A program made the translations under genes and the position numbers. The notes beneath the pieces are model-generated. The model saw only the letters and a list, made by a program, of their open reading frames with translations, was not told the origin of the DNA and made no database searches. 39,588 nt of DNA, from the IMG/VR virus record IMGVR_UViG_3300031688_000044, positions 1 to 39,588 of that record. The stretch is one strand, 5' to 3'. This document shows, one piece after another, positions 2,450 to 39,588 of this stretch (position 1 is the first letter of the stretch; each line of letters starts with the position of its first letter). Source of the DNA: a virus.

Positions 2450-2516
2450 ATTGTTAATAACTTATTGAAAATAATTGCATAGGATTGTTCCGGTTAAATT
2501 ATTATGCTTATATTTA
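2450..2516 (+). promoter_or_regulatory. Early promoter with GTTAATAAC element
   Basis: GTTAATAAC at 2453-2461 lies exactly 55 bp upstream (start to start) of the TTATATTTA core at 2508-2516. Between them are TTGAAAATAA and TTCCGGTT. The leader ACTATAACAAATTAAAC follows. The core contains an in-frame ATG (2504) that extends the next ORF artificially. Confidence 0.8.
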
Positions 2517-2542
2517 ACTATAACAAATTAAACAAACCTACT

Positions 2543-2824
2543 ATGACTTACGCACAAATCGTTAAAGCAATTTCAACCGCAGATCTTCCAATCGAGCAAT
2601 TACGTAGCCTAAACATCTTGGTTATCGGCTCAATTAAAGCGAAGAAATCAACATCTGATCGTTCAACTAAAGCACTACTAAGAGTTGGAATGAAAGTTGG
2701 AATCGATCACAAAAAATGTAGAAATACCGACTTTGTTATTACGAAGATCAATAGCACTAAGATAGTCGCTGTAGATGATGCTGGTAACAGTTACAATGTT
2801 CCAGTTAGTATGTTGATATTTTAA
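2543..2824 (+). CDS. Hypothetical protein, 93 aa
   Basis: I set the start at ATG 2543. The longer frame from 2504 would translate the promoter core and leader (MLIFNYNKLNK), and the same peptide prefix appears before unrelated genes. The protein begins MTYAQIVKAISTADLP and ends VPVSMLIF. A helical N-terminus is followed by a basic segment and a beta-rich C-terminus (VGMKVGIDHKK...VVDDAG-like) that could be a small SH3-type barrel. Function unknown. Confidence 0.7.
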   Translation: MTYAQIVKAISTADLPIEQLRSLNILVIGSIKAKKSTSDRSTKALLRVGMKVGIDHKKCRNTDFVITKINSTKIVAVDDAGNSYNVPVSMLIF

Positions 2825-2877
2825 TTGAAAATAAGTACATAAAAGTTTTTTTATGTCAAACTTAATGCTTATATTTA
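2825..2877 (+). promoter_or_regulatory. Early promoter, GTCAA subclass
   Basis: TTGAAAATAA begins 44 bp before the core TTATATTTA (2869-2877), with TTTTTTTATGTCAAAC between. It has no GTTAATAAC. The stop codon of the preceding gene touches the element. It drives the 131-aa gene at 2904. Confidence 0.75.
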
Positions 2878-2903
2878 ACTATAACAAATTAAACAAATCA
2901 ACT

Positions 2904-3299
2904 ATGACTACTACCTACCAGATCACAACAAAATTCGACCAAACATTTATCATCGATGCTAATCAGTATGGATTACTCGCTGAAGGTGCTCATGTACCAG
3001 TTCAGTCATTAGGTCACGATATTTCATTGGACCAACACGTTAAACGAATCGTTCAGATTGACACAGACGAAACTAGGTATATAACGTACGAAGTTGAAGA
3101 GACGGAGACAGCACACTACCAGGGCAAGATTGGTTTTTATCAGCACAAAGTTAATCAGGCTGTCGAACAGCTAAACACAAAGCACCTTGCTTTTTATTCA
3201 TCAAAGCTGGAACGCCTTATAAATCTTGAAGTTAAACGCCAAACAGTTATCAATCGAATGGCAGAGCAAATGGAATCAATAATCGGACCAGCGTCATAA
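2904..3299 (+). CDS. Hypothetical protein, 131 aa
   Basis: The start is ATG 2904. The longer frame from 2853 includes the promoter. It begins MTTTYQITTKFDQTF and ends ESIIGPAS. The N-terminal half is beta-rich. From about residue 80 a long helix with QAVEQLNTKHLAFYSSKLERL is coiled-coil-like. No catalytic motif or membrane segment. Single-gene transcript between two promoters. Confidence 0.7.
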   Translation: MTTTYQITTKFDQTFIIDANQYGLLAEGAHVPVQSLGHDISLDQHVKRIVQIDTDETRYITYEVEETETAHYQGKIGFYQHKVNQAVEQLNTKHLAFYSSKLERLINLEVKRQTVINRMAEQMESIIGPAS

Positions 3300-3309
3300 T
3301 TGTAGCTCG

Positions 3310-3329
3310 AGACTAAATGATTATATTTA
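3310..3329 (+). promoter_or_regulatory. Putative promoter core TTATATTTA, weak upstream match
   Basis: TTATATTTA at 3321-3329 is preceded by GACTAAATGA rather than the usual TTCCGG or GTCAA block, so this copy is degenerate. It lies 27 bases before the 35-aa gene and has the usual A-rich leader. Confidence 0.5.
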
Positions 3330-3355
3330 CTTATACAAATTAAAACTTACACATT

Positions 3356-3463
3356 ATGAACGATTTCATTTACATAAACGGCGACAAGTACAAGGTGATT
3401 ACAGTTAACAGATTCACAAATGGAGTTAACGAACCATACGACGTATACGAACTAGTAGAATAA
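3356..3463 (+). CDS. Very small protein, 35 aa, unknown
   Basis: ATG 3356 to TAA 3461-3463. It begins MNDFIYINGDKYKVITVNRF and ends YELVE. A beta-hairpin style pattern (INGDKYKVITV) is visible. It is supported by its own promoter core and A-rich leader. It is too short for family assignment. Confidence 0.55.
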   Translation: MNDFIYINGDKYKVITVNRFTNGVNEPYDVYELVE

Positions 3464-3469
3464 TATTAA

Positions 3470-3608
3470 AAATGGTATCAATCAAACACCTCCCCGTGGT
3501 GATACTGGAAATTGGAAGCTATTAGCGGGAAGAGAATAGTCCATCAAAACCAAGTTTGAATATTAGGTAACTGAAGAATACTGGCTCGATTCCTACTGGG
3601 ATCACTTA
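3470..3608 (+). other. Structured non-coding segment, possible decayed tRNA
   Basis: A hairpin pairs GTATCA (about 3476) and CACC with GGTGATAC (about 3500). Further on, CTATT and AATAG bracket an 11-base loop, and CTCGATTC resembles a T-loop near 3590. The flanking GTGGT and ATCAC could form part of an acceptor stem, but the T-stem does not pair. It may be a pseudo-tRNA or a small RNA. No protein frame fits. Confidence 0.3.
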
Positions 3609-3615
3609 AATTAAT

Positions 3616-3668
3616 TTGAAAATAGTTAACATAAAGTTTTTTTATGTCAAACTTAATGCTTATATTTA
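3616..3668 (+). promoter_or_regulatory. Early promoter, GTCAA subclass
   Basis: TTGAAAATA at 3616 is 44 bp before the core TTATATTTA (3660-3668), with TTTTTTTATGTCAAAC between. It is nearly identical to the promoter at 2825-2877. It drives the winged-helix gene at 3705. Confidence 0.75.
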
Positions 3669-3704
3669 ACTATAACAAATTAACAATAACTAAATACCTA
3701 CCAC

Positions 3705-4004
3705 ATGGAAAATCACAATCTCAACATCACAACATTAGAAACACAGGTACTAACTGAACTAATACAAGGATTATACGCTGAGCCTGGATTCAGCGATGTT
3801 TCAGATGCAGATCTAGTTAGACAAACTGGAATTCCAGCTAAATCTATTAGAGGAGTTCTTGGTAGCTTAACTAAGAAAGGTATCATATTCCAATTAACAG
3901 CAAGGGAATTGGGTATCGATGATCCATACTGCGATTTCAAAACCATCGTATATTTAGATGATGCTCACCATAACCTTCACCCAGAATGGAAACAACACAT
4001 ATAA
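3705..4004 (+). CDS. Winged-helix DNA-binding protein, 99 aa
   Basis: Residues about 8-65 read as a winged helix: LETQVLTELIQGLY, then DADLVRQTGIPAKSIRG as the helix-turn-helix, then VLGSLTKKGIIFQL as the recognition helix and wing. This matches small MarR-like wHTH proteins common in T4-like phages of environmental bacteria. The C-terminal tail (DFKTIVYLDDAHH) may mediate contacts. It is probably a transcription regulator, with target unknown. It is first in an operon with the 68- and 71-aa genes, which makes it a candidate reader of the conserved promoter elements nearby (inference). Confidence 0.75.
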   Translation: MENHNLNITTLETQVLTELIQGLYAEPGFSDVSDADLVRQTGIPAKSIRGVLGSLTKKGIIFQLTARELGIDDPYCDFKTIVYLDDAHHNLHPEWKQHI

Positions 4005-4011
4005 AATCAAT

Positions 4012-4218
4012 ATGAAAAATGATATCCAAATTGGAGATTCAGCACAATATATCGTGCCATGCTCCTCAACCGCAAGAAACTACGTCAATGTTGAAGTAGT
4101 ACTGGTTCACGATGGAAATTTTCCACTCGTTGAATTGAACAACGGCCACTCGGCTAGATGGAACGGACGAGATTTTGAACTCGTAGATCTACCATCAACA
4201 CTTGAATTTATAAAATAA
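4012..4218 (+). CDS. Hypothetical protein, 68 aa
   Basis: I chose ATG 4012, seven bases after the upstream stop. The frame opens earlier (3958) only by overlapping the winged-helix gene. It begins MKNDIQIGDSAQYIVPC and ends STLEFIK. The pattern GDSAQYIVP...VNVEVVLVHDGNFPLVELNNG looks like a small beta barrel of SH3/KOW type. Function unknown. Confidence 0.65.
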   Translation: MKNDIQIGDSAQYIVPCSSTARNYVNVEVVLVHDGNFPLVELNNGHSARWNGRDFELVDLPSTLEFIK

Positions 4219-4223
4219 CTATT

Positions 4224-4439
4224 ATGGAAAATGCAGCAACTCGATTAGTCGAAGACATTATATCTGCAAACGCAGTGAACGACACATTTGTATCAGTTGA
4301 TCATGACGATCGAGACATCAACATCTGGCTAAGTAGAGTCAGTAGAAAATGGGTACTAGAAATAGATGGATCGGTTATTGCAACGCATAGGGACGTAGCA
4401 GTTGTCGTAAACAAGTTGGTTGATATGAAACTAATTTGA
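4224..4439 (+). CDS. Hypothetical protein, 71 aa
   Basis: It begins MENAATRLVEDIISANAV and ends VDMKLI. The layout is helix, beta, helix (RLVEDIISA; FVSVDHDDRDINIWL; KWVLEIDGSVIA; VAVVVNKLVD). No motif is recognised. Its final codons overlap the next promoter, so it ends this transcript unit. Confidence 0.65.
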   Translation: MENAATRLVEDIISANAVNDTFVSVDHDDRDINIWLSRVSRKWVLEIDGSVIATHRDVAVVVNKLVDMKLI

Positions 4440-4488
4440 AAATAAGTTCACTATAATTTTCCCGTGTCAAACTTAATGCTTATATTTA
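4436..4488 (+). promoter_or_regulatory. Early promoter, GTCAA subclass
   Basis: TTGAAAATAA at 4436 is 44 bp before the core TTATATTTA (4480-4488), with TTTTCCCGTGTCAAAC between. This copy joins features of both subclasses (TTTTCC plus GTCAA). It drives the membrane protein gene at 4519. Confidence 0.75.
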
Positions 4489-4518
4489 CATTTATTAATT
4501 AACATATCAAACAACATT

Positions 4519-4797
4519 ATGGAAACAGAATTAACATTATTTTTAGACATGCTAGGTAAAGCATCTGGTATTGGATTAGTATTAGCTCCAACAATATTTG
4601 GTTTCATGGTTTGGAACAAGCTAAACGTTAAGAGCAATCCAAAGATCAAATCTCTCGAGGCTGCTGATAAGACGATCGTTGAAAGTACAAACGAAGCACT
4701 AGCAATTATTCTTGACAGAATGGACGCAATCGAACATACAATATCTGATTTGGATATTGAAAGAAAGCCAATCTCTGGATTTAAAGCAGATAAATAA
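4519..4797 (+). CDS. Small single-pass membrane protein, 92 aa
   Basis: It begins METELTLFLDMLGKASG. A hydrophobic segment at about residues 15-35 (GIGLVLAPTIFGFMVWNKL) is a likely transmembrane helix. The rest is a charged helical tail (AADKTIVESTNEALAIILDRMDAIEH) that looks like a coiled coil. The architecture could suit a holin-like or superinfection-type membrane protein, but nothing specific supports either. First of a four-gene operon. Confidence 0.65.
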   Translation: METELTLFLDMLGKASGIGLVLAPTIFGFMVWNKLNVKSNPKIKSLEAADKTIVESTNEALAIILDRMDAIEHTISDLDIERKPISGFKADK

Positions 4798-4798
4798 T

Positions 4799-4942
4799 AT
4801 GGAAGATCTATCTAACGCAGAATTATACGAAATTCGAGAATTGATCTGTGAAGAAATGGCTAGAACTGGTTCAAATTTGAACGAACATTTATCTTCGGCG
4901 CTACGCAAATTATCTAGTAACTTCATAACAAAAAAAGATTAA
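4799..4942 (+). CDS. Small helical protein, 47 aa
   Basis: The start at ATG 4799 lies one base after the upstream stop. The frame opens further upstream only inside the previous gene. It begins MEDLSNAELYEIRELICEEM and ends NFITKKD. It is probably a helical hairpin. Function unknown. Confidence 0.6.
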   Translation: MEDLSNAELYEIRELICEEMARTGSNLNEHLSSALRKLSSNFITKKD

Positions 4943-4943
4943 T

Positions 4944-5222
4944 ATGAAAAAACGATGGATTAGTACAATGACTCGAACGTCATCTGAACCAAGTGGTCAA
5001 ACTGGATCTACACCGCCAGAAGTTGATCAATTTGAATATGAATCGACTGATTTAGAACAAATAGCCGATCGGTTTGACGCAATTCAAACACATGCCGGCA
5101 GGGTTGGTAAGCAGGATTTAGAGCTTAGTCAATTAAGTTTTGAATGTGGGCGCATTTATGCAGACCTTAAGGCGATAAACTCCGATTTACGACAAATTCT
5201 TAGTACAATAAAATCAATATAA
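4944..5222 (+). CDS. Hypothetical protein, 92 aa
   Basis: It begins MKKRWISTMTRTSSEPSG and ends QILSTIKSI. A low-complexity Ser/Thr/Pro-rich N-terminus is followed by an acidic linker and a helical C-terminal half (LELSQLSFECGRIYADLKAINSDLRQI), perhaps a coiled coil. Same operon as the 47-aa gene. Unknown function. Confidence 0.65.
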   Translation: MKKRWISTMTRTSSEPSGQTGSTPPEVDQFEYESTDLEQIADRFDAIQTHAGRVGKQDLELSQLSFECGRIYADLKAINSDLRQILSTIKSI

Positions 5223-5236
5223 CCAATCAACAAAAT

Positions 5237-5374
5237 ATGACAGTATTAGACGTGTACAGCAATATGGTTTCAATGGTATGGCCAGACTCAGAAGTAGAAA
5301 CTATTCTTAAATCGGACTTTATTAGATTGTACGGCAGCAGCCCAATCAGTAATTATCATACTTTAAATTGTTAA
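5237..5374 (+). CDS. Small protein, 45 aa, unknown
   Basis: ATG 5237 to TAA 5372-5374. It begins MTVLDVYSNMVSMVWPD and ends NYHTLNC. The stop codon lies inside the GTTAATAAC palindrome of the next promoter, so the regulatory element and the coding end are merged. An A-rich leader precedes the start. No family recognised. Confidence 0.55.
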   Translation: MTVLDVYSNMVSMVWPDSEVETILKSDFIRLYGSSPISNYHTLNC

Positions 5375-5433
5375 TAACTTTTAAAAATAAATGATCAATT
5401 GTTTTCCGGTTGGGAAAATATTGCTTATATTTA
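5370..5433 (+). promoter_or_regulatory. Early promoter with GTTAATAAC element (copy 1 of a duplicated pair)
   Basis: GTTAATAAC at 5370-5378 is exactly 55 bp before the core TTATATTTA (5425-5433). The sequence from TTTTCCGGTT through the leader (5401-5469) is identical over 69 bases to 6121-6189. Confidence 0.8.
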
Positions 5434-5474
5434 TACTATAAATAACAAATTAACACTAACTAAACCTACGCAAC

Positions 5475-5672
5475 ATGCAAAATCAAGCAAAATCAGGAAT
5501 CAACTCATCATCAATCGTTTTGATTGTATTCGTTATCTTGAAGTTAACAAACCTAATTTCATGGTCATGGACATGGGTTCTATCGCCAATCTGGATTCCA
5601 ATTCTATTGGTCGTATCTGTTGTAGCAATTGCAGCTGTAGCAAGTTTTGTATATAGTAATTTCATAAAGTAA
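5475..5672 (+). CDS. Small two-pass membrane protein (phage Fragile-X-F-like transmembrane family)
   Basis: It begins MQNQAKSGINSSS. Two hydrophobic segments at about 13-29 (SIVLIVFVILKLTNLI) and 38-60 (PIWIPILLVVSVVAIAA) are joined by SWSWTWVLSP. The pattern LKLTxxIxWSWxWVLSPxWIPxxL is typical of small phage and bacterial membrane proteins in this family, whose role is unknown. An 85-residue frame over the same bases is a shadow. It follows its own promoter and leader. Confidence 0.7.
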   Translation: MQNQAKSGINSSSIVLIVFVILKLTNLISWSWTWVLSPIWIPILLVVSVVAIAAVASFVYSNFIK

Positions 5673-5683
5673 ACAATCCAATT

Positions 5684-5923
5684 ATGACAATCAAATCACA
5701 AGTATTAGAATACGTTGCAACAAAACGTGGAGCAACATACACTGAGATTATAACCTTCGTTTGTAAGTTGAATGGTATTACATACGACTATCGCAAAAAC
5801 AGAGGATATTACAGCTCAGCATTTAGTTCATCTGCCAATCCATATTTCCTAACTGGAAAAGACAGACTATCCAAATTTTGGGATGGCAAATACTACGCAG
5901 TTTTCGGAAAAACAAAGGCCTAG
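5684..5923 (+). CDS. Hypothetical protein, 79 aa, winged-helix-like
   Basis: It begins MTIKSQVLEYVATKRGATYTEII and ends AVFGKTKA. The start resembles a winged helix (VLEYVATKRGATYTEIITFV), followed by an aromatic and basic segment (YDYRKNRGYYSSAF) and a Lys/Gly-rich end. It could bind nucleic acid. The assignment is tentative. Confidence 0.6.
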   Translation: MTIKSQVLEYVATKRGATYTEIITFVCKLNGITYDYRKNRGYYSSAFSSSANPYFLTGKDRLSKFWDGKYYAVFGKTKA

Positions 5924-5980
5924 ATAATGTATCATAATGTTAACAATCTAGTAACATTGAATTAATACACTTCGGCTAGC

Positions 5981-5994
5981 CAATCATATTTATA
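5981..5994 (+). promoter_or_regulatory. Putative late-type promoter box CATATTTATA
   Basis: CATATTTATA at 5985-5994 lies immediately before the 26-aa ATG at 6000 and resembles the late box TATATTTAT. No upstream early elements are present. The short distance to the start is unusual. Confidence 0.35.
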
Positions 5995-5999
5995 TTCAT

Positions 6000-6080
6000 A
6001 TGAAACAACACACAAAAATAGACGTTAGCGGTTTTTTATACGTAGCAATAATGTTGACTGCATATATATTAGGCCTGTAG
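6000..6080 (+). CDS. Tiny membrane peptide, 26 aa
   Basis: ATG 6000 to TAG 6078-6080. It begins MKQHTKIDVSGFLYV and continues into a hydrophobic stretch ending AYILGL. It is a likely single transmembrane peptide. It is supported by a promoter-like box and its position between two cassettes. The short length makes it uncertain. Confidence 0.4.
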   Translation: MKQHTKIDVSGFLYVAIMLTAYILGL

Positions 6081-6089
6081 AATTAGATT

Positions 6090-6153
6090 GTTAATAACTT
6101 TTGAAAATAAATGTAAAAACGTTTTCCGGTTGGGAAAATATTGCTTATATTTA
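6090..6153 (+). promoter_or_regulatory. Early promoter with GTTAATAAC element (copy 2 of a duplicated pair)
   Basis: GTTAATAAC at 6090-6098 is exactly 55 bp before TTATATTTA (6145-6153). TTGAAAATAA (6101) and TTTTCCGGTTG (6122) lie between. It is near-identical to the promoter 720 bp upstream. Confidence 0.8.
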
Positions 6154-6194
6154 TACTATAAATAACAAATTAACACTAACTAAACCTACTTATT

Positions 6195-6578
6195 ATGAGC
6201 AGAACTAAAAAACCAAATCAATTCATTTACGGAATCGAAATTACAAAGCCACATTCAAGCGAAATGTACAGCCACAACGATACAGTTGCTGATAACATGA
6301 AGACAATTATTATGGAATTGGGTGGTAAACTTCGCAAGTTAGCCGATGATGAAAGCAATCCAAGTTCGGAAACAGCATTTAGAAATGTGGTTGCTACAAT
6401 GTGCTACAGATTCGGAGAAGGTTTCACATTAGACGATATCTTCAAGGAATTCAGTAGAACAGTTTCTGATTCTGAAAACTGGTTCATGAACGAATCATAC
6501 GGAGATTTACATAGCGATGGATTAGTTCCGACATTGGAAGTTGGAATGGTTGGTCACGGTAATATTAGCTATGTCTAG
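6195..6578 (+). CDS. Hypothetical protein, 127 aa
   Basis: It begins MSRTKKPNQFIYGIEIT and ends GHGNISYV. It is soluble and mostly helical in the middle (VADNMKTIIMELGGKLRKLADDE; FRNVVATMCYRFGEGFTLDDIFKEF). No known motif. First gene of a run ending in the metallophosphoesterase and SPFH genes. Confidence 0.7.
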   Translation: MSRTKKPNQFIYGIEITKPHSSEMYSHNDTVADNMKTIIMELGGKLRKLADDESNPSSETAFRNVVATMCYRFGEGFTLDDIFKEFSRTVSDSENWFMNESYGDLHSDGLVPTLEVGMVGHGNISYV

Positions 6579-6789
6579 GGAAGAATACATTGCAATGCGC
6601 AATTCAAGTAATTTGAATGTGCAATTGCTTTTTTCGTATTTTGTCAAAAACGGCGGAGACAGTAACTATAATATGTTTATGATGGCATTGCGATCTATGG
6701 ACATATCAAGTATTACTAAGCACCTCGATAAGGAATTCAGCCTATCAATTTTATCGAGTAAAGAAGGAACATTCATAAAAGCATACTAA
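6571..6789 (+). CDS. Hypothetical protein, 72 aa
   Basis: ATG 6571 overlaps the stop of the previous gene (ATGTCTAG), a normal coupled arrangement. A start at 6541 would bury 38 bases in the upstream gene. It begins MSREEYIAMRNSSNLNVQ and ends TFIKAY. Helical, unknown function. Confidence 0.6.
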   Translation: MSREEYIAMRNSSNLNVQLLFSYFVKNGGDSNYNMFMMALRSMDISSITKHLDKEFSLSILSSKEGTFIKAY

Positions 6790-6790
6790 C

Positions 6791-7060
6791 ATGACAGAAT
6801 GGAAATTAACTAGATCACGAGACGGTTTAACCAAACTATCTGATCAAATTGGATTTATATCATGGAAAGACGACGACACATTCGATGAACTTATCATCGG
6901 TATCGACGGCATAAAAATTGGTAGAAGTCTAATACTCGGTCCATTTACAAACGAATATGTTTGGCAGACCACCGTCATAAACACAGTTCAGTTTGGCGTT
7001 GATGGATCACTAACGATCGACACACTCAATTCAATATACACCCTAGAAAGACAAGACTAA
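6791..7060 (+). CDS. Hypothetical protein, 89 aa
   Basis: It begins MTEWKLTRSRDGLTKLSD and ends YTLERQD. It is beta-rich with repeated DG turns (FDELIIGIDGIKIG; FGVDGSLTIDTL). Its stop TAA shares its last base with the ATG of the metallophosphoesterase gene, so the two are translationally coupled. Unknown function. Confidence 0.65.
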   Translation: MTEWKLTRSRDGLTKLSDQIGFISWKDDDTFDELIIGIDGIKIGRSLILGPFTNEYVWQTTVINTVQFGVDGSLTIDTLNSIYTLERQD

Positions 7061-7740
7061 TGAGAATTTGGCACATAAGCGATACTCACACGTATCATGG
7101 TCACTTGAATATACCATCAGATATTGACATGGTGATCTTTTCAGGAGACTGTTCGAACCCTAGAAATCAATATGCAAATGAGCCTGAGGTTCGTTCGTTT
7201 ATAACATGGTTTAGTAGTCTACAAATCAAGCACAAGATATTCGTTGCTGGAAATCACGACTCAAGTATCGAATATGGACTTGTCGATAGGGACCTATTCA
7301 AGGCAAATGGTATCGTCTATTTGGAAAATGAATCAGTAACGATCGATGGTATTAACATATGGGGATCACCGTTCTCTCCAACATTCGGAGACTGGTCGTT
7401 CATGAAAAATCGATCAAAATTAAGTCGACTTTGGGCTGAAATTCCAGATAACACGAACATTGTTATTGTGCACGGACCACCTAAGGGCATATTGGACCTA
7501 TCAACTGATAGATTCGGAGCATTAGAATACTGTGGATGTTCGGCTTTAGCAAAACGATTATTGACTGTTCGTCCAAAACTAGTATTATTTGGACACATTC
7601 ACAATTGCGAAGGCATAATCAATGCTGGAACAAAAACGATTGCAGGAATCGACACACTTTATAGTAACGGTTCATGCGTAAAAGACGGAAGATTTGGCAA
7701 GAATACTGGCCAAGGTAACATTTTAACATACGCAAAATGA
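7060..7740 (+). CDS. Calcineurin-like metallophosphoesterase, 226 aa
   Basis: Metal-binding motifs appear in family order: SDTH (Asp8, His10), SGDCSNPR (Asp30), AGNHD (Asn65, His66), VHGPP (His138) and FGHIH (His179, His181). This is a complete two-metal site. The spacing and the HGPP motif resemble the MPPED1/2 class of small phosphodiesterases rather than Mre11. A phage enzyme of this kind could cut cyclic nucleotides, nucleotide signals or RNA ends. The substrate cannot be told from sequence. It overlaps both neighbours by one to four bases. Confidence 0.85.
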   Translation: MRIWHISDTHTYHGHLNIPSDIDMVIFSGDCSNPRNQYANEPEVRSFITWFSSLQIKHKIFVAGNHDSSIEYGLVDRDLFKANGIVYLENESVTIDGINIWGSPFSPTFGDWSFMKNRSKLSRLWAEIPDNTNIVIVHGPPKGILDLSTDRFGALEYCGCSALAKRLLTVRPKLVLFGHIHNCEGIINAGTKTIAGIDTLYSNGSCVKDGRFGKNTGQGNILTYAK

Positions 7741-7901
7741 TCGAAAAAATAATGGGAATAATCATAACATTGTTTGTAGCAATATTTATGATAACAATTG
7801 GGCTCGACCTAATTAGTGAACCGAATACAACTAAGAATATCGCCGGATTCTTAGTCGTACTTTTAACAATTTATTCCGGTATTAAATTAATCAACAGGTA
7901 G
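7737..7901 (+). CDS. Two-pass membrane protein, 54 aa
   Basis: ATG 7737 overlaps the metallophosphoesterase stop (ATGA). It begins MIEKIMGIIITLFVAIF. Hydrophobic segments at about 5-24 and 37-50 are separated by a polar loop (SEPNTTKN). It lies four bases before the SPFH lipoprotein gene and could work with it at the membrane (inference from position only). Confidence 0.65.
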   Translation: MIEKIMGIIITLFVAIFMITIGLDLISEPNTTKNIAGFLVVLLTIYSGIKLINR

Positions 7902-7905
7902 TTAT

Positions 7906-8763
7906 ATGAAAAAGCAAATTTTATTAGTATTAGGGGTAGCAACGTTATTGTTATCTTCATGTGGATATGAGCGTATTGACGCAGGACACGAAGGAATTAG
8001 AGTTAATCTATATGGAAATGAAAAGGGAGTGCAAAACGTAACAGCAGTTACTGGAGCAGTTTGGTACAATCCATTCACGACAGAGGTATATGAAGTACCA
8101 ACGTATGTTCAAAACGCAGTTTACACTAAGCAAGACACTCGTCATTCCGATGAAAATGAGGAATTTAGAATAACGACGAGTAATGGACTAGTTGTTGCAT
8201 TCGATGTATCTATAAACTATTATACTCCAGCTGAAAATGTTGTAAGTATATTTAAGAAATATCGTCGACCAATTGGAGAGTTAGAAAAAACGATCGTCAA
8301 GAACTATATGCGTGATGCGTTTAACTCAACAGCTGCAAACTATTCAGCTTCGGAATTATATGAGCGTCGTAATGACTTCCAAACTGAGTCAGAAAATGCG
8401 ATTAGAACGATTCTCGAGCCAGAAGGATTTGTCATCGAACAAGTTGTATTATTAAATGAGTTGAGACTTCCAAAATCGGTTGTGTCGAACATCGAAGCGA
8501 AGGTTAATGCTACTCAAATGGCATTACGTAAGCAAGAGGAATTGGCTCAAACTACGGCAGATGCAGAGAAAATTGTTGCAGAAGCAGAGGGAGATGCGAA
8601 AGCTATGCGAATTAATGCAGAGGCCGAACGTTATGCTTTCCAGCAGAAAAACACAGCATTGACCGATCTATTGGTTCAACAACAGATGATCGAGAAATGG
8701 GATGGTAAATTGCCAACATACGGCGTAGTACCACAGTTATTTAAGTCCGTAACCGGCAAATAA
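7906..8763 (+). CDS. SPFH/prohibitin-family lipoprotein, 285 aa
   Basis: A lipoprotein signal peptide runs MKKQILLVLGVATLLLSSC with Cys19 as the probable lipid-modified residue, which would place the protein on the outer face of a membrane. Residues about 25-190 match an SPFH/band 7 domain (GHEGIRVNLYGNEKG; WYNPFTTEVYEVPTYVQ; AFDVSINYYTP; KNYMRDAFNSTAANYSASELY). Residues about 195-245 form the Ala/Glu-rich coiled coil typical of prohibitins (EELAQTTADAEKIVAEAEG). SPFH proteins form large membrane rings. A phage copy could influence host membrane proteases or block superinfection, which is inference. The length is typical for prohibitins. It is followed by structured RNA and a tRNA. Confidence 0.88.
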   Translation: MKKQILLVLGVATLLLSSCGYERIDAGHEGIRVNLYGNEKGVQNVTAVTGAVWYNPFTTEVYEVPTYVQNAVYTKQDTRHSDENEEFRITTSNGLVVAFDVSINYYTPAENVVSIFKKYRRPIGELEKTIVKNYMRDAFNSTAANYSASELYERRNDFQTESENAIRTILEPEGFVIEQVVLLNELRLPKSVVSNIEAKVNATQMALRKQEELAQTTADAEKIVAEAEGDAKAMRINAEAERYAFQQKNTALTDLLVQQQMIEKWDGKLPTYGVVPQLFKSVTGK

Positions 8764-8843
8764 CAGTATAGCTGTTGATGGTACCAGCAAACTAAGGTCT
8801 TTAGTTGGGTTTTCCACCCATAATTAAAGTTAGACAACCATCA
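8762..8843 (+). ncRNA. Multi-hairpin structured RNA between the SPFH gene and the tRNA
   Basis: AACAG/CTGTT (8762-8766 with 8772-8776) forms a first hairpin. Then TGATGGT (8776-8782) pairs with ACCATCA (8837-8843), closing a domain that contains AACTAA/TTAGTT (8790-8795 with 8801-8806) and GGGT/ACCC. The 7-bp closing stem resembles a tRNA acceptor, but no T-loop is present. It lies three bases before a tRNA and may be a processing element, terminator or small RNA. Confidence 0.4.
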
Positions 8844-8846
8844 CCC

Positions 8847-8920
8847 GGACCCTTAGCTCAGTTGGTTAGAGCAGAACACTCATAATGTTAAGGTCACTGG
8901 TTCGAGTCCAGTAGGGTCCA
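8847..8920 (+). tRNA. tRNA with CAT anticodon (tRNA-Met or lysidine-type tRNA-Ile2)
   Basis: Full cloverleaf: acceptor GGACCCT/AGGGTCC, D-arm GCTC/GAGC, T-arm ACTGG-TTCGAGT-CCAGT, discriminator A at 8920, and no encoded CCA. The anticodon stem is four pairs plus a G-A mismatch at its top, with loop CTCATAA. The D-arm (AGCTCAGTTGGTTAGAGC) and GGTC variable region fit elongator Met or Ile2. The two cannot be separated by the anticodon. Phages often carry such a tRNA to match AT-rich codon use (ATA is very common here), which would favour Ile2. Confidence 0.92.
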
Positions 8921-8942
8921 CTCAACAATAATTAGCACCATG

Positions 8943-8951
8943 TATATTTAT
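8943..8951 (+). promoter_or_regulatory. Late-type promoter box TATATTTAT
   Basis: TATATTTAT lies 28 bases before the ATG at 8971, without the TTCCGG or GTCAA elements of the early promoters. The same box stands before the late structural genes. Confidence 0.55.
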
Positions 8952-8970
8952 TAATGAACAGATTTAAACC

Positions 8971-9369
8971 ATGGAGCAAAAGATGAAAAAGATTAAGGCG
9001 GCATTATGTATATTCATGTTATTATCGACAGTATGTACCGCACAGACAACCTATATATCAGATGTGACCAACCTGTATGATTGGAATGGTATGGCTTATC
9101 AATTAGATGAATCATTCAAATCTGAAGTTGCATTTACAATCCACGAAGAGTACATAGAAGTAATGTTAAACGATACCGAGATTATTCATACTTGGTGGGT
9201 ATTGATTCCAGAATGCGATGATGCATATGACTGTTACATAACAGACGGAGATAAATCCAAAATTTGTATATTCCATGAGGAAAAGTCAATTGTTTTTTGG
9301 ACAGTTGAAGATGAAAATGGCCAGTACCTTAAGGCCATCGAATTGGCAAATATATTAATTATAAAATAG
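8971..9369 (+). CDS. Secreted/periplasmic protein of unknown function, 132 aa
   Basis: It begins MEQKMKKIKAALCIF. An alternative ATG at 8983 would give a cleaner signal peptide (MKKIKAALCIFMLL). A hydrophobic core with a likely type I cleavage after CTA (before QTT) indicates export. The mature part is acidic and beta-rich (FTIHEEYIEVMLNDTEIIHTW). A late-type box upstream suggests expression with late genes. No family recognised. Confidence 0.7.
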   Translation: MEQKMKKIKAALCIFMLLSTVCTAQTTYISDVTNLYDWNGMAYQLDESFKSEVAFTIHEEYIEVMLNDTEIIHTWWVLIPECDDAYDCYITDGDKSKICIFHEEKSIVFWTVEDENGQYLKAIELANILIIK

Positions 9370-9412
9370 TTGATATAATATTTTTTTATGTCATTTTAAT
9401 TGCTTATATTTA
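9370..9412 (+). promoter_or_regulatory. Early promoter (TTGAT ... TTATATTTA)
   Basis: TTGAT begins 34 bp before the core TTATATTTA (9404-9412), with TTTTTTTATGTCA between. It drives the 3'-phosphatase gene. Confidence 0.7.
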
Positions 9413-9437
9413 CTTATAACAATTAAACATATCAACT

Positions 9438-9899
9438 ATGAGCAATTCAAACAAATGGGTAATTTTCGATCTAGATGGCACCCTAGCACTTATTGATGAT
9501 CGACGATCCTTTAGCACAAAGGACAATGGGAAGATTAATTGGACTAAGTTTTTTGATCCAAATAATATCCAAATGGATAAGCCCAATAATCCAGTCATAA
9601 TCATGGCACAAACACTCAAATCACAAGGTTTCAATATTGCGATATTTTCTGGTCGATGTACTGGAACAAAGGACACTACAACAAAATGGCTTGATAAATT
9701 CAATGTACCATTTGACAGTATCACAATGAGACCACTAAATTCATTCACACCCGACGATAAGCTCAAATCAGATTGGTTCGACGCTAAATTTCCAAATCAA
9801 TCTGATGTACTATGTATATTCGATGATCGCGATAAGGTCGTGAAAATGTGGAGAGATAGAGGATTAACGGTTATGCAAGTCGCTCCTGGTTCATTTTAA
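9438..9899 (+). CDS. HAD-type polynucleotide 3'-phosphatase domain (T4 PseT C-terminal type)
   Basis: HAD motif I is FDLDGTLA with Asp11 and Asp13, motif II is FSGR (Ser71), Lys108/Lys110 sit in the motif III region, and motif IV is FDDR (Asp129, Asp130) followed by KVVKMWRDRGL and a VAPGSF end. This ending closely resembles the 3'-phosphatase half of T4 polynucleotide kinase. In T4 that domain removes 3' phosphates from cut RNA and DNA ends and works with the 5'-kinase and RNA ligase in repair of host tRNA cleavage. Here it is a stand-alone 153-residue protein. No kinase half or ligase is in the window. Confidence 0.85.
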   Translation: MSNSNKWVIFDLDGTLALIDDRRSFSTKDNGKINWTKFFDPNNIQMDKPNNPVIIMAQTLKSQGFNIAIFSGRCTGTKDTTTKWLDKFNVPFDSITMRPLNSFTPDDKLKSDWFDAKFPNQSDVLCIFDDRDKVVKMWRDRGLTVMQVAPGSF

Positions 9900-9917
9900 C
9901 ATTAATAGACATTCAAT

Positions 9918-10280
9918 ATGAAAGCAATACATAAATTCAACAACGGGTATGGCGCTACATTATGTAACCAATGTCGCTGCATTATCGGTAGAGGATTACA
10001 TAACGCAGTTTTATGTGAAAATTGCATTAAAAAACAACAAACTAACACGGACAAAACTATGACACAAGATGAAAAGATATTATTAGATTGGTACGGACAA
10101 GGTTGGCACGACGAATTATGGGGTTGGGCAGATGCAAACATCAAATTTATTGCAGATGAATATTTGCCGGCATATAAACTAGGCCGGGATCATGCAATAT
10201 TGGGAGATGAATCTGACCTAATTGAATCTATGGCAGATCGGGCTATTCTGAAACAAATACTCAAACGCAGTGATCGTTAG
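9918..10280 (+). CDS. Zinc-ribbon protein, 120 aa, unknown
   Basis: The N-terminus has two Cys pairs, LCNQC (Cys16, Cys19, plus Cys21) and LCENC (Cys33, Cys36), a treble-clef or zinc-ribbon layout. After a linker (QQTNTDKTMTQ) comes an aromatic helical part (WYGQGWHDELWGW) and a C-terminal helical part (YKLGRDHAILGDESDLIESM). A Met in the linker could be an internal start for the second half alone. It is 18 bases after the 3'-phosphatase, in the same operon. Function unknown. Confidence 0.7.
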   Translation: MKAIHKFNNGYGATLCNQCRCIIGRGLHNAVLCENCIKKQQTNTDKTMTQDEKILLDWYGQGWHDELWGWADANIKFIADEYLPAYKLGRDHAILGDESDLIESMADRAILKQILKRSDR

Positions 10281-10285
10281 AAATT

Positions 10286-10349
10286 GTTAATAACTTATTG
10301 AAAATAATCACATAGGATTGTTCCGGTTAAAGAATAATGCTTATATTTA
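10286..10349 (+). promoter_or_regulatory. Early promoter with GTTAATAAC element
   Basis: GTTAATAAC at 10286-10294 is exactly 55 bp before TTATATTTA (10341-10349), with TTGAAAATAA and TTCCGGTT between. It drives a four-gene operon at 10376-11408. Confidence 0.8.
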
Positions 10350-10375
10350 ACTATAACAAATTAAACAAACCTATT

Positions 10376-10546
10376 ATGATGATAATTGTAGAATGCATAG
10401 ATCCAGGCGTATGGAAGAACCATTTGACATTAGGTTCAAAGTACAATGTAATTGCATTGGACGAAGATGTTTACCAGCTTATAGATGATAGTGGAGAGAT
10501 AAACTACTACTTTATAAATAGATTCAACAAACTAAAACAAGACTAA
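10376..10546 (+). CDS. Small protein, 56 aa, SH3/KOW-like
   Basis: The start is ATG 10376 (a second ATG follows at once). The longer frame from 10337 translates the promoter. It begins MMIIVECIDPGVWKNHL and ends NKLKQD. The pattern of GSKYNVIALDEDVYQLIDDSG is typical of small phage SH3-like proteins. The 3' end and junction (actaaaacaagactaagatg) recur at the next gene boundary. Confidence 0.65.
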   Translation: MMIIVECIDPGVWKNHLTLGSKYNVIALDEDVYQLIDDSGEINYYFINRFNKLKQD

Positions 10547-10547
10547 G

Positions 10548-10766
10548 ATGAGTACTGAAATACTATTAGCGAATTTATTAAGTCTAGTACCAAAACGATT
10601 AGCTAATGATTTAGCTAGACTGATTGATGTTCGTATTAAGGAGCTTACTAACAAGCGAGTAATAGAAGAGTTGGAGAAGCAATTAGAAAATTACTTTAAT
10701 CAAGAAGTAGAAACCTACCTATCAGATAATCTTAAAAATAGAATCAAAGAACTAAAACAAGAGTAA
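10548..10766 (+). CDS. Helical/coiled-coil protein, 72 aa
   Basis: It begins MSTEILLANLLSLVPKR and ends NRIKELKQE. It is nearly all helical, with heptad-like Leu/Ile spacing and many Lys/Glu. It follows the stop of the upstream gene by one base and shares a 19-of-20 identical 3' junction with it. Unknown function. Confidence 0.65.
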   Translation: MSTEILLANLLSLVPKRLANDLARLIDVRIKELTNKRVIEELEKQLENYFNQEVETYLSDNLKNRIKELKQE

Positions 10767-10767
10767 G

Positions 10768-10983
10768 ATGGATAGAGAAAGACTAGGAAAGATAAATACA
10801 ATTACAATGGAGCTAAACGATTTACTTCAAGAGCACGAAATAAAGAATAAGGATTCGTTTTTAAGTGGCGTATCAAGTATTATATGTCAACTAGACACCG
10901 ATATTGCTATTGAAGTAATGGAATCCTTTGGTGAGGAAGGTAAGAATGAAGCACTTTCAATTAAAATTAATTACGGATACTAA
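10768..10983 (+). CDS. Hypothetical protein, 71 aa
   Basis: It begins MDRERLGKINTITMELND and ends IKINYGY. It is helical and acidic. The gene is followed by a second copy of the acaagactaag junction, here outside any coding frame. Unknown function. Confidence 0.6.
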   Translation: MDRERLGKINTITMELNDLLQEHEIKNKDSFLSGVSSIICQLDTDIAIEVMESFGEEGKNEALSIKINYGY

Positions 10984-10994
10984 ACAAGACTAAG

Positions 10995-11408
10995 ATGGCG
11001 ATAGATATACACGAAGAAGCTATAGAGCTAATGATCAAATGGGATCAGACATACCGTATGGATAATCAGATATCTCTAGATGAATACTTAGCAGAGTATA
11101 GTGTAATAATGCATGTAGAAGACATAGAAGCTGGATGGAACCTCTTCTATAGGCTAAAGGGAAATAAACGGAATATATTGCATGACAGGTTATTAAATAC
11201 AATACACCAGCCATCGACTTCAACTGAAGCTAAAGAGCTCCATAGTTACTTAGTTAAAATATACGTAGACCAGTATGTAAGAGAAATGCTTACAGAGGAA
11301 CTTGAAAACGTAGTAGAGGTAGCAGAACACCATAGGAAAGCCTCATCGGTTATAAGCCATGCTAAGTATAGAATAGAAGAGCTCTCTCGAGATCATTTTG
11401 ACAAATAG
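10995..11408 (+). CDS. Hypothetical helical protein, 137 aa
   Basis: It begins MAIDIHEEAIELMIKWDQ and ends LSRDHFDK. It is mostly helical, with an acidic centre and a C-terminal segment (EELENVVEVAEHHRKASSVIS) that may form a coiled coil. Last gene of its operon, ended by the next promoter two bases later. Unknown function. Confidence 0.65.
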   Translation: MAIDIHEEAIELMIKWDQTYRMDNQISLDEYLAEYSVIMHVEDIEAGWNLFYRLKGNKRNILHDRLLNTIHQPSTSTEAKELHSYLVKIYVDQYVREMLTEELENVVEVAEHHRKASSVISHAKYRIEELSRDHFDK

Positions 11409-11413
11409 AGATT

Positions 11414-11477
11414 GTTAATAACTTTTGAAAATAAACAGTCCAAGATTGTTCCGGTTAAATTATTATGCTTATATTTA
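11414..11477 (+). promoter_or_regulatory. Early promoter with GTTAATAAC element
   Basis: GTTAATAAC at 11414-11422 is exactly 55 bp before TTATATTTA (11469-11477), with TTGAAAATAA and TTCCGGTT between. Confidence 0.8.
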
Positions 11478-11503
11478 CTTATAACCAATCAAACAAACCT
11501 ACT

Positions 11504-11854
11504 ATGGAAAACAATACAGAATCAAACACATCTGAATTTATAATGGCTCATTGGAGTGCATTGGACTCAACATCAATTGAACGGTATTTTAGCGATCGAT
11601 CAGAGGCGCTTATACAGCAATTAGCTGACGATTCGGATCAGCTTCCGATTCAAGCGGAAACCAACGATAAATTAGACGCTGATATTATGCATGATATGTT
11701 ATGTAAAGATATCGCATTTACTCGAGACAGAATTAGAGCATACTCTAGCATATTGGAGACCGATTTAGAATACTACATTAGAAAAATCCTTATTTCCGAT
11801 CTCGCTGATGCAAAGAAACGATTAATTATGCTAGTCGATCAAATGCACAGTTAA
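11504..11854 (+). CDS. Hypothetical helical protein, 116 aa
   Basis: The start is ATG 11504. The frame from 11465 includes promoter sequence. It begins MENNTESNTSEFIMAHW and ends MLVDQMHS. It is helical and acidic (ALIQQLADDSDQLP; FTRDRIRAYSSILETDLEYYIRK). Single-gene transcript between two promoters of the same type. Unknown function. Confidence 0.65.
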   Translation: MENNTESNTSEFIMAHWSALDSTSIERYFSDRSEALIQQLADDSDQLPIQAETNDKLDADIMHDMLCKDIAFTRDRIRAYSSILETDLEYYIRKILISDLADAKKRLIMLVDQMHS

Positions 11855-11863
11855 ATAGAAATT

Positions 11864-11927
11864 GTTAATAACTTTTGAAAATAATGTTAAATTTATTTTC
11901 CGGGTTAATCGATTATGATTATATTTA
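11864..11927 (+). promoter_or_regulatory. Early promoter with GTTAATAAC element
   Basis: GTTAATAAC at 11864-11872 is exactly 55 bp before TTATATTTA (11919-11927), with TTTTCCGGGTT between. The core is preceded by GATTATGA rather than ATTATGC. It drives the deoxyribonucleotidase gene. Confidence 0.8.
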
Positions 11928-11932
11928 ACTAT

Positions 11933-11974
11933 AAATAACAAATAACAAATAACAAATAACAAATAACAAATGAC
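11933..11974 (+). repeat. AAATAAC tandem repeat in the leader of the deoxyribonucleotidase gene
   Basis: Five perfect copies of AAATAAC (11933-11967) are followed by AAATGAC (11968-11974). The A-to-G change in the sixth copy makes the ATG start at 11970. Other leaders in the window carry only one ATAAATAAC, so this looks like a local expansion. Copy number would change the 5' UTR in 7-base steps without touching the reading frame. Confidence 0.9.
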
Positions 11975-12419
11975 CAAATTACGAATATTCATTGACCTAG
12001 ATGGTGTATTGGCAGATTTTGCATTACTCGCATCAGCTCACCCAAACTTTACAGGGGATGGACATTGTCCAGATTTAGACCTCGATTTTTCGATATTACA
12101 ACCTATACCCGGAGCTAAGTTAGCTGTTCAAGCTTTACTTGATTCCGGTCATGACCTGTTGATCGCTTCTACGGCTCCTTGGGATAACCCAAATGCTTGG
12201 ACGCAAAAGCGATTATGGGTAGCAGATCACTTTCCACAATTTAGAAAAAAATTAATATTGACACATAGAAAAGATCTATTGATCGGAGACATACTAATCG
12301 ACGATCACACTTGGAATGGAGCTGGAGATTTTAGTGGAAAACTAATCCACTTTGGCACTGATCAATTCCCAGACTGGACATCAGTTGTAGATCACGTTAA
12401 TATATTAGCAACCAACTAA
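11970..12419 (+). CDS. 5'(3')-deoxyribonucleotidase-like HAD phosphatase (NT5C type)
   Basis: Motif I is FIDLDGVLADF (nucleophile Asp9, acid Asp11), motif II is ASTAPW (Ser67/Thr68), motif III Lys is near KDLL (Lys101), and motif IV is DILIDD (Asp111, Asp112). The STAPWDNPNAWTQK stretch is typical of the NT5C deoxyribonucleotidase family in phages. It removes the phosphate from deoxyribonucleoside monophosphates and helps adjust dNTP pools. At 149 residues it is slightly shorter than bacterial homologues. The start codon is created by the leader repeat. Confidence 0.85.
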   Translation: MTKLRIFIDLDGVLADFALLASAHPNFTGDGHCPDLDLDFSILQPIPGAKLAVQALLDSGHDLLIASTAPWDNPNAWTQKRLWVADHFPQFRKKLILTHRKDLLIGDILIDDHTWNGAGDFSGKLIHFGTDQFPDWTSVVDHVNILATN

Positions 12420-38059: not shown

Positions 38060-39588
38060 TGGCTAATCAGGCTAATATAAAAACAATAGACTATAAGGGA
38101 TTTGACTCAGCATCAGATGGAACAGGACCTTCAGGATGGATGCTTTGGTCTGGATCACAAGAATTATCAGGTAGTTTATACAATGGCGTTGGAATGGAAT
38201 TAGTCGCCGGATCAGACTCATATTTGAAATTTGATGCATCAGCAGCAGGTGCAGAATTGGATATTAGAGCTAAGAAGTTCTTCGTTGGAACAGCGAATAC
38301 GCAATACATATCTGGATCAGATGGTAATATTGAAATATCTTCCTCACTATTCCATCTTGATCCATTGAACAACAGCTTAATTATTGGTGCAGGAACAGTT
38401 ATAAACGCTGATTTATCTGCTAATCAATTATTTGTGCCAGCCGGAAAAGACGCAAACAATGCAACAGCATACATATCTAGTTCAGGTGATGCAAAATTCG
38501 TAGGTGATGGCGCCGGAACATATGCTGTTAATTTGTCCCCGGGTAATTCGTCCATATCTGGATGGTCAATTAATGCAACATCGTTATCGAGTTCTAATTT
38601 GGTAATAGATTCATCTGGTGAAATAAAGACTAAGGATTATATTTCTAATCAAACTGGTTGGAAGATAGATGGCACTGAAGCTGAATTTGCCAATGTTAAG
38701 GTACGTGGTACACTTGGAACGACTGTATTCGAAAAAGACACGATATCTGCAGTAGGTGGGCAAGTAATGATTGCTAATGCGACAACATTTACTGGTAGTA
38801 ATTTGGACTTCGACGGAACTGGTAATCCAACACACTCATTTACAGTTGCAAATACTGGCGGATGGGTAGTTGGTGAATATGTTAGAGCTAAAGCAACATC
38901 GTCAACTGGTTTTGTAGAGGAGATAATGCAGATCGACACAATATCGGCTGATCCTATATCATTAGATATGGTTAGACGAATTGGTGGAGGTCCATATATC
39001 CCATCTGTAACTGACGGTCAAGTATTAATTTCGGCAGGTCTATATGACAATACAACTAATCCTGGTCAAGTAACACAAAGTGGTTATATACATCTCAATG
39101 CTGATCCTGGTGACAACAGTACACCGTATATTGATATAATAGAACGAACTGGTTCTGGAGTCAATGATGTAGAAGTAAAAGCTAGACTAGGTGATCTTAG
39201 TGGTATTGGTAGCTTAACTGATCCTGGATATGGATTATACTCCGAAAATGTATTCTTAACTGGAAAAATAACAGCAACATCGGGTAGAATTGGTGGCGTT
39301 GACATAGAATCAGACAAACTGTATATTGGAGATGGCACACATAGTGATGCTGACACGGCATTCTATGTTGATAACACTGGAAACTTTAGCTTAGCTGATA
39401 AATTTTCTTGGAATGGAACACAATTGGTCGTTAAAGGCGCTATAACAATAGAGGCATTCACTGACACTAATGATGTTATGGGCATAACTGCCAATGCAAC
39501 AACAGCTGCAAATGCAACATCTACATTAACTTCAACAGTTGGTGCCAATGCAACAACAGCTGCAAATGCAACATCTACATTAACTTCA
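38059..39588 (+). CDS. Tail fibre / receptor-binding protein, N-terminal 510 aa (runs off window end)
   Basis: ATG 38059 shares a base with the previous stop. It begins MANQANIKTIDYKGFDSAS. Repeats such as SISGWSIN, TGWKIDGTEAEFANVKVRGTL and SGRIGGVDIESDKLYIGDG are typical of phage tail-tip and fibre proteins, in which GWxIxxDGxAEFxNVxVRG units form shaft repeats. From about residue 478 the sequence becomes an 18-residue tandem repeat (ANATTAANATSTLTSTVG) that is cut off by the window end. The gene is therefore partial, and the receptor-binding end is outside. Confidence 0.78.
   Translation, partial: MANQANIKTIDYKGFDSASDGTGPSGWMLWSGSQELSGSLYNGVGMELVAGSDSYLKFDASAAGAELDIRAKKFFVGTANTQYISGSDGNIEISSSLFHLDPLNNSLIIGAGTVINADLSANQLFVPAGKDANNATAYISSSGDAKFVGDGAGTYAVNLSPGNSSISGWSINATSLSSSNLVIDSSGEIKTKDYISNQTGWKIDGTEAEFANVKVRGTLGTTVFEKDTISAVGGQVMIANATTFTGSNLDFDGTGNPTHSFTVANTGGWVVGEYVRAKATSSTGFVEEIMQIDTISADPISLDMVRRIGGGPYIPSVTDGQVLISAGLYDNTTNPGQVTQSGYIHLNADPGDNSTPYIDIIERTGSGVNDVEVKARLGDLSGIGSLTDPGYGLYSENVFLTGKITATSGRIGGVDIESDKLYIGDGTHSDADTAFYVDNTGNFSLADKFSWNGTQLVVKGAITIEAFTDTNDVMGITANATTAANATSTLTSTVGANATTAANATSTLTS
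39490..39588 (+). repeat. 54-bp tandem repeat in the tail fibre gene
   Basis: Two identical 45-base copies (39490-39534 and 39544-39588) are separated by ACAGTTGGT, giving an 18-codon period (ANATTAANATSTLTSTVG). The window ends inside the array, so the copy number is unknown. Ala/Thr/Asn-rich with regularly spaced hydrophobics, compatible with a trimeric coiled-coil shaft. Confidence 0.85.

Follow-up and report, generated by a model that had tools for sequence, protein, structure and literature searches.

The window analysed here is the IMG/VR virus record IMGVR_UViG_3300031688_000044 at its full length of 39,588 bp, and it carries a short box, GTTAATAAC, at a strictly kept distance upstream of the -7 core TTATATTTA of some of its promoters. 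In its extended form, AAATTGTTAATAACTTT, this box is probably the site of a sequence-specific activator that is encoded by the host and has been borrowed by T4-like phages. Six exact boxes are present in the window, on the + strand only, and each lies 55 bp (start to start) from a downstream core. All six pairs had been proposed at this distance in a first-pass annotation of the DNA and were recovered position by position. Since the same box with a similar spacing is found before replication genes of Bacteroidota, a host factor is favored as the protein binding to it. The pairs and one gene downstream of them are the following.

2453..2516, + strand: box 2453-2461, -7 core TTATATTTA 2508-2516; TTCCGG at 2488; next ATG at 2543 (93-aa gene)
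5370..5433, + strand: box 5370-5378, core 5425-5433; TTCCGG at 5404; next ATG at 5475 (65-aa gene, phrog_1374)
6090..6153, + strand: box 6090-6098, core 6145-6153; TTCCGG at 6124; next ATG at 6195 (127-aa gene)
10286..10349, + strand: box 10286-10294, core 10341-10349; TTCCGG at 10321; next ATG at 10376 (56-aa gene)
11414..11477, + strand: box 11414-11422, core 11469-11477; TTCCGG at 11449; next ATG at 11504 (116-aa gene)
11864..11927, + strand: box 11864-11872, core 11919-11927; TTCCGG at 11898; next ATG at 11970
11970..12419, + strand: NT5C-type 5' nucleotidase gene (Pfam PF06941); homologues in the related records G222 and G224 have box promoters as well (56 and 68 bp)

Box and core in the window and in related phages

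In 300 trials of an order-1 Markov model of the window, 0.39 exact + strand boxes appeared on average (maximum 3) and a box-core pair at 40-70 bp never; the backwards pattern of box and core does not occur in the window. One-mismatch boxes are only mildly enriched (28 vs. 18.5 expected). For the remaining nine + strand TTATATTTA sites, which are without a box, the best match at 40-70 bp has 2-4 mismatches, and therefore the presence of the box in the window is all-or-none. Within the pairs, TTCCGG starts either 35 bp after the box and 20 bp before the core (at 2453, 10286 and 11414) or 34 bp after and 21 bp before (at 5370, 6090 and 11864). Such compensating lengths had already been described, with values of 43/44 and 22/23 bp that must start from other points. 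The six copies show a box-to-core identity of 0.45-0.89, including two near-duplicate pairs (0.86 and 0.89), whereas the flanks upstream of the boxes are unrelated (identity 0.13-0.40). Therefore, a common cassette starts at the box, and the six copies are independent only in part.

The window matches part of G217 at 99.99-100% identity; G217 is a record of 147,286 bp which encodes T4-type portal, capsid (Gp23) and terminase proteins; a gp6-like protein of the window matches Microcystis phage Mel-JY01 (47.8%) and Flavobacterium phage immuto (41.3%). Of four further boxes in G217 beyond the window, three are at 55 bp and one is at 46 bp, which makes ten in total, nine of them at exactly 55 bp. 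Freely varying spacing, which the first-pass annotation had named as evidence against its reading, is thus not seen in the genome-wide count. Seven of eight IMG/VR relatives were analysed (G220 was left out), one of them being G217 as the fuller copy of the window. Of the 79 exact boxes in these seven records, 65 are in phase with TTATATTTR. Starting from 292 TTATATTTR sites, and skipping sites less than 130 bp from a piece boundary, the 65 box pairs located 20-120 bp upstream all fall at 45-47, 55-58 or 66-68 bp. One-mismatch boxes number 12, with 3 of them at 55 bp, in comparison to the 65 exact pairs. The earlier suggestion that the total spacing is what is conserved holds, and across phages it is quantised in whole helical turns. 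This is as expected for a protein which sits on one face of the DNA and touches RNA polymerase, a contact that we infer.

Homologous phage genes retain the box, with a distance that shifts by about one or two whole turns. For the NT5C nucleotidase it is 55 bp in G217, 56 bp in G222 and 68 bp in G224 (homology by Pfam), and for NAMPT 46 bp in G223 (Pfam) and 57 bp in G218, where the start is near-identical. Judged by similar starts, the 127-aa gene has its box at 55 bp in G217 and its homologue at 68 bp in G224, and a 666-aa gene with a box at 46 bp in G217 has tandem boxes in G222 and G224.

The wider IMG/VR database was scanned for a box 40-70 bp before the core, which yielded at least 119 stretches. 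Among the matches listed, 94 of 116 non-redundant pairs are at 45-47, 55-57 or 66-68 bp, classes that were picked after the first histogram, vs. 33.7 expected for a flat distribution. Three control boxes were flat or nearly so across IMG/VR: the canonical DnaA-type box GTGGATAAC is in phase in 13 of 53 (15.4 expected) in a complete scan, and among the matches listed the reversed box is in phase in 28 of 93 (27.0 expected) and GTTGATAAC in 31 of 72 (20.9 expected, p 0.008), a slight excess made up mostly of sequences unlike these promoters. For a fourth turn, scanned at 71-101 bp, no peak was found among the matches listed and two cases, at 78 bp, are promoter-like. The box is used in one orientation only. 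The palindrome had been read as a symmetric site, and a symmetric dimer operator was rejected: GTTATTAAC has 2 exact matches (at 36 and 62 bp) vs. 65 forward pairs in the seven records, and the reversed box is likewise flat in the control above.

In three phages, box promoters precede sigma-70-type genes (G223 by Pfam; G218 and G219 by similar starts), and sigma-70-like genes directly under such promoters lie at L290:9540-10133, L292:2966-3583 and L322:10723-11334. Here, the box could act as the first step of a phage transcription cascade. DNA ligase, UvdE and 5'-3' exonuclease genes are also preceded by box promoters in phages. Furthermore, several copies of MoxR-like/VWA-type genes are under box promoters, among them a MoxR-like AAA ATPase (AAA_5) near a gene with a weak CobT-type VWA match (L280:871-2085, L280:9751-11748 and homologues in G222 and G224); as cargo, a pair of MoxR and VWA genes would be out of the ordinary. 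Other products encoded by the relatives and the window are a protein read as GroEL-like and, by Pfam, NAMPT and a Band 7/SPFH protein (L281:14541-16163, L289:7997-9493 and window 7906-8763).

Eight named phage records were also scanned. MA9V-2 has one box, of the 46 class; the matches of MA9V-1, Lak-B1 and PAU are unlike these promoters, and DAC16, Panino, immuto 3-5A and Mel-JY01 have no box-core match.

Architecture of the box promoters

A profile of 119 non-redundant elements, in which the letters of box and core are fixed by the search itself, gives AAATTGTTAATAACTTT followed, in the 56 class, by AAAATAA, an A-rich stretch, TTTT, TCAA and TTATATTTAcATAATAA. The Bacteroidota -7 element is placed at -12 to -5 in one study (PMC9723704). 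With this placement the box is centred near -65, -55 or -76, and A-tracts lie near -51 and -40 (-54 to -48 and -42 to -38), at steps of about 10 bp between the box and the -33 region. In UP elements, the C-terminal domains of the RNA polymerase alpha subunits bind around positions like these, and the A-tracts may hint at such a contact, which is suggestive only.

Bacteroidota sigma-ABfr promoters have a -33 TTTG and a -7 TAnnTTTG, as given in two studies (PMC7366714, PMC9723704). The core TATATTTA and the TTTT/TTGT tract at the -33 position, kept as TTTT in the box promoters, resemble these elements; only the last base of the core differs, the final G of the -7 element being A in the phage cores. 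Because of this -7 element and the relatives, the host of these phages is presumably a member of the Bacteroidota. The start-site study of B. thetaiotaomicron made its motif search from -50 to +1 only (PMC7366714) and therefore could not have seen the box. No paper on this box element was found in literature searches, including one for the literal motif, whose listed matches were irrelevant as judged by title or the beginning of the abstract.

Among known activator systems, the class I activator CRP has its sites at -61.5, -71.5 and -82.5. The box promoters are similar in that an upstream site is tolerated at steps of one turn, with A-tracts between site and -33 region; they differ by a box in one orientation, which also occurs at about -55. 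By occurrence, not by activity, the class I arrangement is found in all 65 pairs of the seven records and in 94 of 116 IMG/VR pairs among the matches listed. In T4 middle promoters, the box of the phage-encoded MotA, at about -30, takes the place of the -35 element. Here again, some promoters of a T4-like phage carry an additional short box, but it lies at about -65 (-55, -76), the -33 TTTT tract is retained and the box is also present before host genes.

In several relatives (L032, L040, L055, L085, L097, L108 and L122), the spacer from box to -7 element is a hairpin, and the T-run after it extends into the -7 element, as though the promoter contained an intrinsic terminator. A weaker TTTTCC...GGGAAAA repeat is seen in the spacer at window positions 5402-5418 and 6122-6138. 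A second promoter class, with a GTCAA-like block after the -33 tract instead of CCGGTT, occurs at window positions 1590, 2826, 3617, 4437, 9361, 13110, 15425 and 31926; it is without the box and shares the TGAAAATAA-like and -7 parts with the first class. The record ends (39489-39588) with a 46-bp sequence in two identical copies, 54 bp apart.

The box before replication genes of Bacteroidota

In Bacteroidota, the box is located 46-48 or 56-60 bp before the TAnnTTTG of dnaN, gyrB, a GyrB/ParE paralogue, dnaX, dnaB, ribonucleotide reductase (RNR) and nucleoside kinase genes; TAnnTTTG formed part of the query in these host searches. A contig scan with TANNTTTG replacing the phage core gave peaks at 47 and 59 bp among the matches listed (at least 118 stretches, not only from Bacteroidota). 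The genes 3' of the in-phase matches listed include thymidine kinase, RNR, deoxynucleoside kinase, dnaB, MraZ and many others, all named by reading save those tested with NCBIfam. In 13 genomes picked from these matches, TTGTTAATAACTT is present 27 times vs. 7 times backwards, and the box lies upstream of dnaB, tdk, dNK and RNR genes among others, 47, 48 or 59 bp before TAnnTTTG. One dnaE has TATCTTTA at 47 bp, and for another dnaE the only candidate is at 37 bp.

Among 198 genomes across the phylum, the in-phase sites precede gyrB in three genomes, the GyrB/ParE paralogue, dnaX, dnaB, dnaN and a few other genes. After these sites had been read, the host phases were set for 148 genomes of the order of genome G114, which gave 49 rows (16 backwards) and 46 distinct sites, 30 of them at 46-48 or 56-58 bp vs. 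8.9 expected. Two thirds of the in-phase sites (20 of 30) precede dnaN (10), gyrB (4), the GyrB/ParE paralogue (4) or dnaX (2), in comparison to none of the 16 out-of-phase sites, two of which are unread (p 1.7e-5 with the unread dropped). Since 12 of the 46 sites lie in genomes already sampled among the 198, the comparison was also made for genomes outside that sample only, with 14 of 21 in-phase and 0 of 13 other sites at those genes (p 8e-5). The dnaN sites form two groups with different spacers, both at 46 bp. Ten representatives were named with NCBIfam: two each of dnaN, dnaX and dnaB, and one each of tdk, dnaE, gyrB and a GyrB/ParE-type protein, the matches of the latter two being partial and below the curated cut-offs.

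The host box is also in phase at L361, L356, L364, L341, L490, L488 and L500; the proteins there, of uncertain role and all named by reading, are PUR-alpha-like, CCDC81/HU-like, DUF3127-like, peroxiredoxin-like, SAM chlorinase-like and radical SAM proteins.

Several observations weigh against a host activator that is shared with the phages. In the window, 9 of 15 cores are without the box, and in the closest named phages (Chryseobacterium MA9V) the two promoters read have downstream parts like those of the window and no box. Across the 198 genomes, the count of the bare box equals that of the backwards control (28 vs. 28). Ordinary Bacteroidota thymidine kinase loci gave no such box in 25 parsed of 30, and for gyrB 4 of 26 parsed loci (of 30) carry one, all 4 in phase; this host gene comparison was made without the ileS control, whose 30 loci yielded no parsed open reading frame. 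The host gene set differs by lineage, and the long spacing of the hosts (56-60 bp to TA) is 0-3 bp longer than that of the phages (56-58 bp to the same base).

Candidate factors and implications

The first-pass annotation had named a phage activator or a hijacked host factor; the box before host replication genes supports the latter, and for the former no common regulator was found among the widest protein clusters of the seven records. Sequence, spacing, orientation, periodicity and the association with host genes are observed; activation, polymerase contact, early use of the promoters and a Bacteroidota host are predicted. A host activator would bind at about -65, or shifted by one turn to about -55 or -76, and would share a face of the DNA with RNA polymerase. 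Its site would adjoin A-tracts of the UP-element type and precede a Bacteroidota sigma-A-like promoter. In host genomes, the site would mark several genes of DNA replication and deoxynucleoside triphosphate (dNTP) supply. A clade of T4-like phages may have put it before a subset of early-region promoters, and the resident host factor together with the polymerase would then start those phage genes. The likeliest factor would be DnaA or a protein of overlapping specificity.

DnaA itself is a sharper form of the host activator and compatible with it: TGTTAATAAC would be a Bacteroidota variant of the DnaA box, and DnaA a helix-phased activator of replisome and phage early genes. We hold this only tentatively, with DnaA as the leading candidate. 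The asymmetric 9-mer is used in one orientation, as would suit DnaA, and the likeness to a DnaA box mentioned in the first pass proved relevant. Of 13 host rows with the canonical TTGTGGATAAC, 7 are in phase (2.5 expected, p 0.006), as are 5 of 11 with near-copies collapsed (p 0.044). The canonical box stands before dnaX at 46 bp in two genomes read, a third row being of identical sequence, before thymidine kinase (tdk) at 47 bp, and in phase before an apt-like gene. The dnaX of G110 and G338 has TTGTTAATAAC at 56 bp instead of the canonical box; before dnaX, TGTTAATAAC at 56 bp in G110 and G338 thus compares with TGTGGATAAC at 46 bp in G019 and G280, and suggestively the same holds for tdk. 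One gyrB has GTTGATAAT at 56 bp, near yidC and near dnaB TGTTAATAAC and TGTGGATAAC are 20-21 bp apart, and in two genomes an array resembling DnaA boxes, upstream of dnaA, includes TGTTAATAA. Clustering of the oriC type amounts to 7 direct box pairs in 20 genomes (in 5 genomes) vs. 0 in the control, and no larger array was found.

Other observations are at odds with DnaA. The DnaA box is also written as TTATnCACA, with n for any base, and TTATTAACA breaks its position 6. In the four DnaA proteins read, the DNA-binding domain retains its DHSTV. In phages, the canonical box shows no in-phase excess in the control described above, and the boxes at dnaB of G110 point away from the gene. A review (PMC8203912) gives the DnaA box as TTATCCACA, states that DnaA can activate transcription and can aid a phage, and does not mention Bacteroidota in its text ('bacteroid' occurs 0 times). 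The DnaA-regulated promoters covered there (nrdAB, dnaN and dnaB, and transcription at the lambda origin) resemble the present ones in the asymmetric 9-mer and in the replication and dNTP gene set, which overlaps the host genes found here. They differ in that the box is TTATTAACA here and not TTATCCACA, at a single, strictly helix-phased upstream position and in many phage promoters.

An architectural site, at which an IHF/HU-type protein bends the DNA or phased A-tract curvature acts alone in place of a classical activator, is unlikely. The A-tracts at steps of about 10 bp from box to -33 region would suit it, and a bend also gives helical periodicity. Curvature, however, needs no fixed 9-mer, and exact pairs outnumber the one-mismatch boxes in the seven records by 65 to 12 (3 at 55 bp); nor would the swap with a DnaA box at dnaX be expected.

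Similarly improbable is an activator encoded by the phages and conserved in the T4-like clade, with the host sites as a separate matter. Among the matches listed, 91 IMG/VR loci are in phase, some of them belonging to the seven records themselves, and 83 have one or more genes in common with those records, which makes a clade-wide factor possible. Against this, the same box and phases occur at host replication genes, and no regulator was recognised, by Pfam or by reading, among the 12 protein clusters that extend over 6 or 7 of the 7 records. These clusters comprise open reading frames of at least 50 aa at a blastp E of 1e-4, which a short or fast-evolving regulator could escape; 11 of the 12 were scanned with Pfam (one, of 413 aa, without a match), and an SbcCD-like cluster was judged by reading. 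The winged-helix protein at 3705, put forward earlier as one candidate binder, has no homologue in the other six records by phmmer and tblastn and is present in this virus only. A phage-encoded activator was rejected on these searches (clusters, Pfam/PHROGs, phmmer/tblastn), which gave no common regulator.

Descent from one cassette duplicated within the genome, with its spacing inherited rather than selected, would account for the two near-duplicate pairs in the window but is highly improbable and already contradicted by the cross-phage and host data, since distances fall into whole-turn steps over diverged promoters and homologous genes alike, 55 bp is retained through compensating indels where identity drops to 0.45, and host genes show similar spacing classes.

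Taking the host activator further, Bacteroidota may control their replisome and dNTP genes via a helix-phased class-I site read by DnaA or by some S-phase regulator, and the T4-like clade may have copied this site into its early promoters, thereby tying the onset of phage transcription to the replication state of the host; this wider scheme is offered as a possibility, short of an even chance. The box offers a starting point, defined at the sequence level, for understanding how replication genes may be coordinately expressed in Bacteroidota, a major phylum of gut and sea, and phages use this same element. Should the factor be DnaA, a single switch would serve replication initiation, replisome supply and phage takeover. 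If it is not DnaA, the box would point to an undescribed regulator of replication genes.

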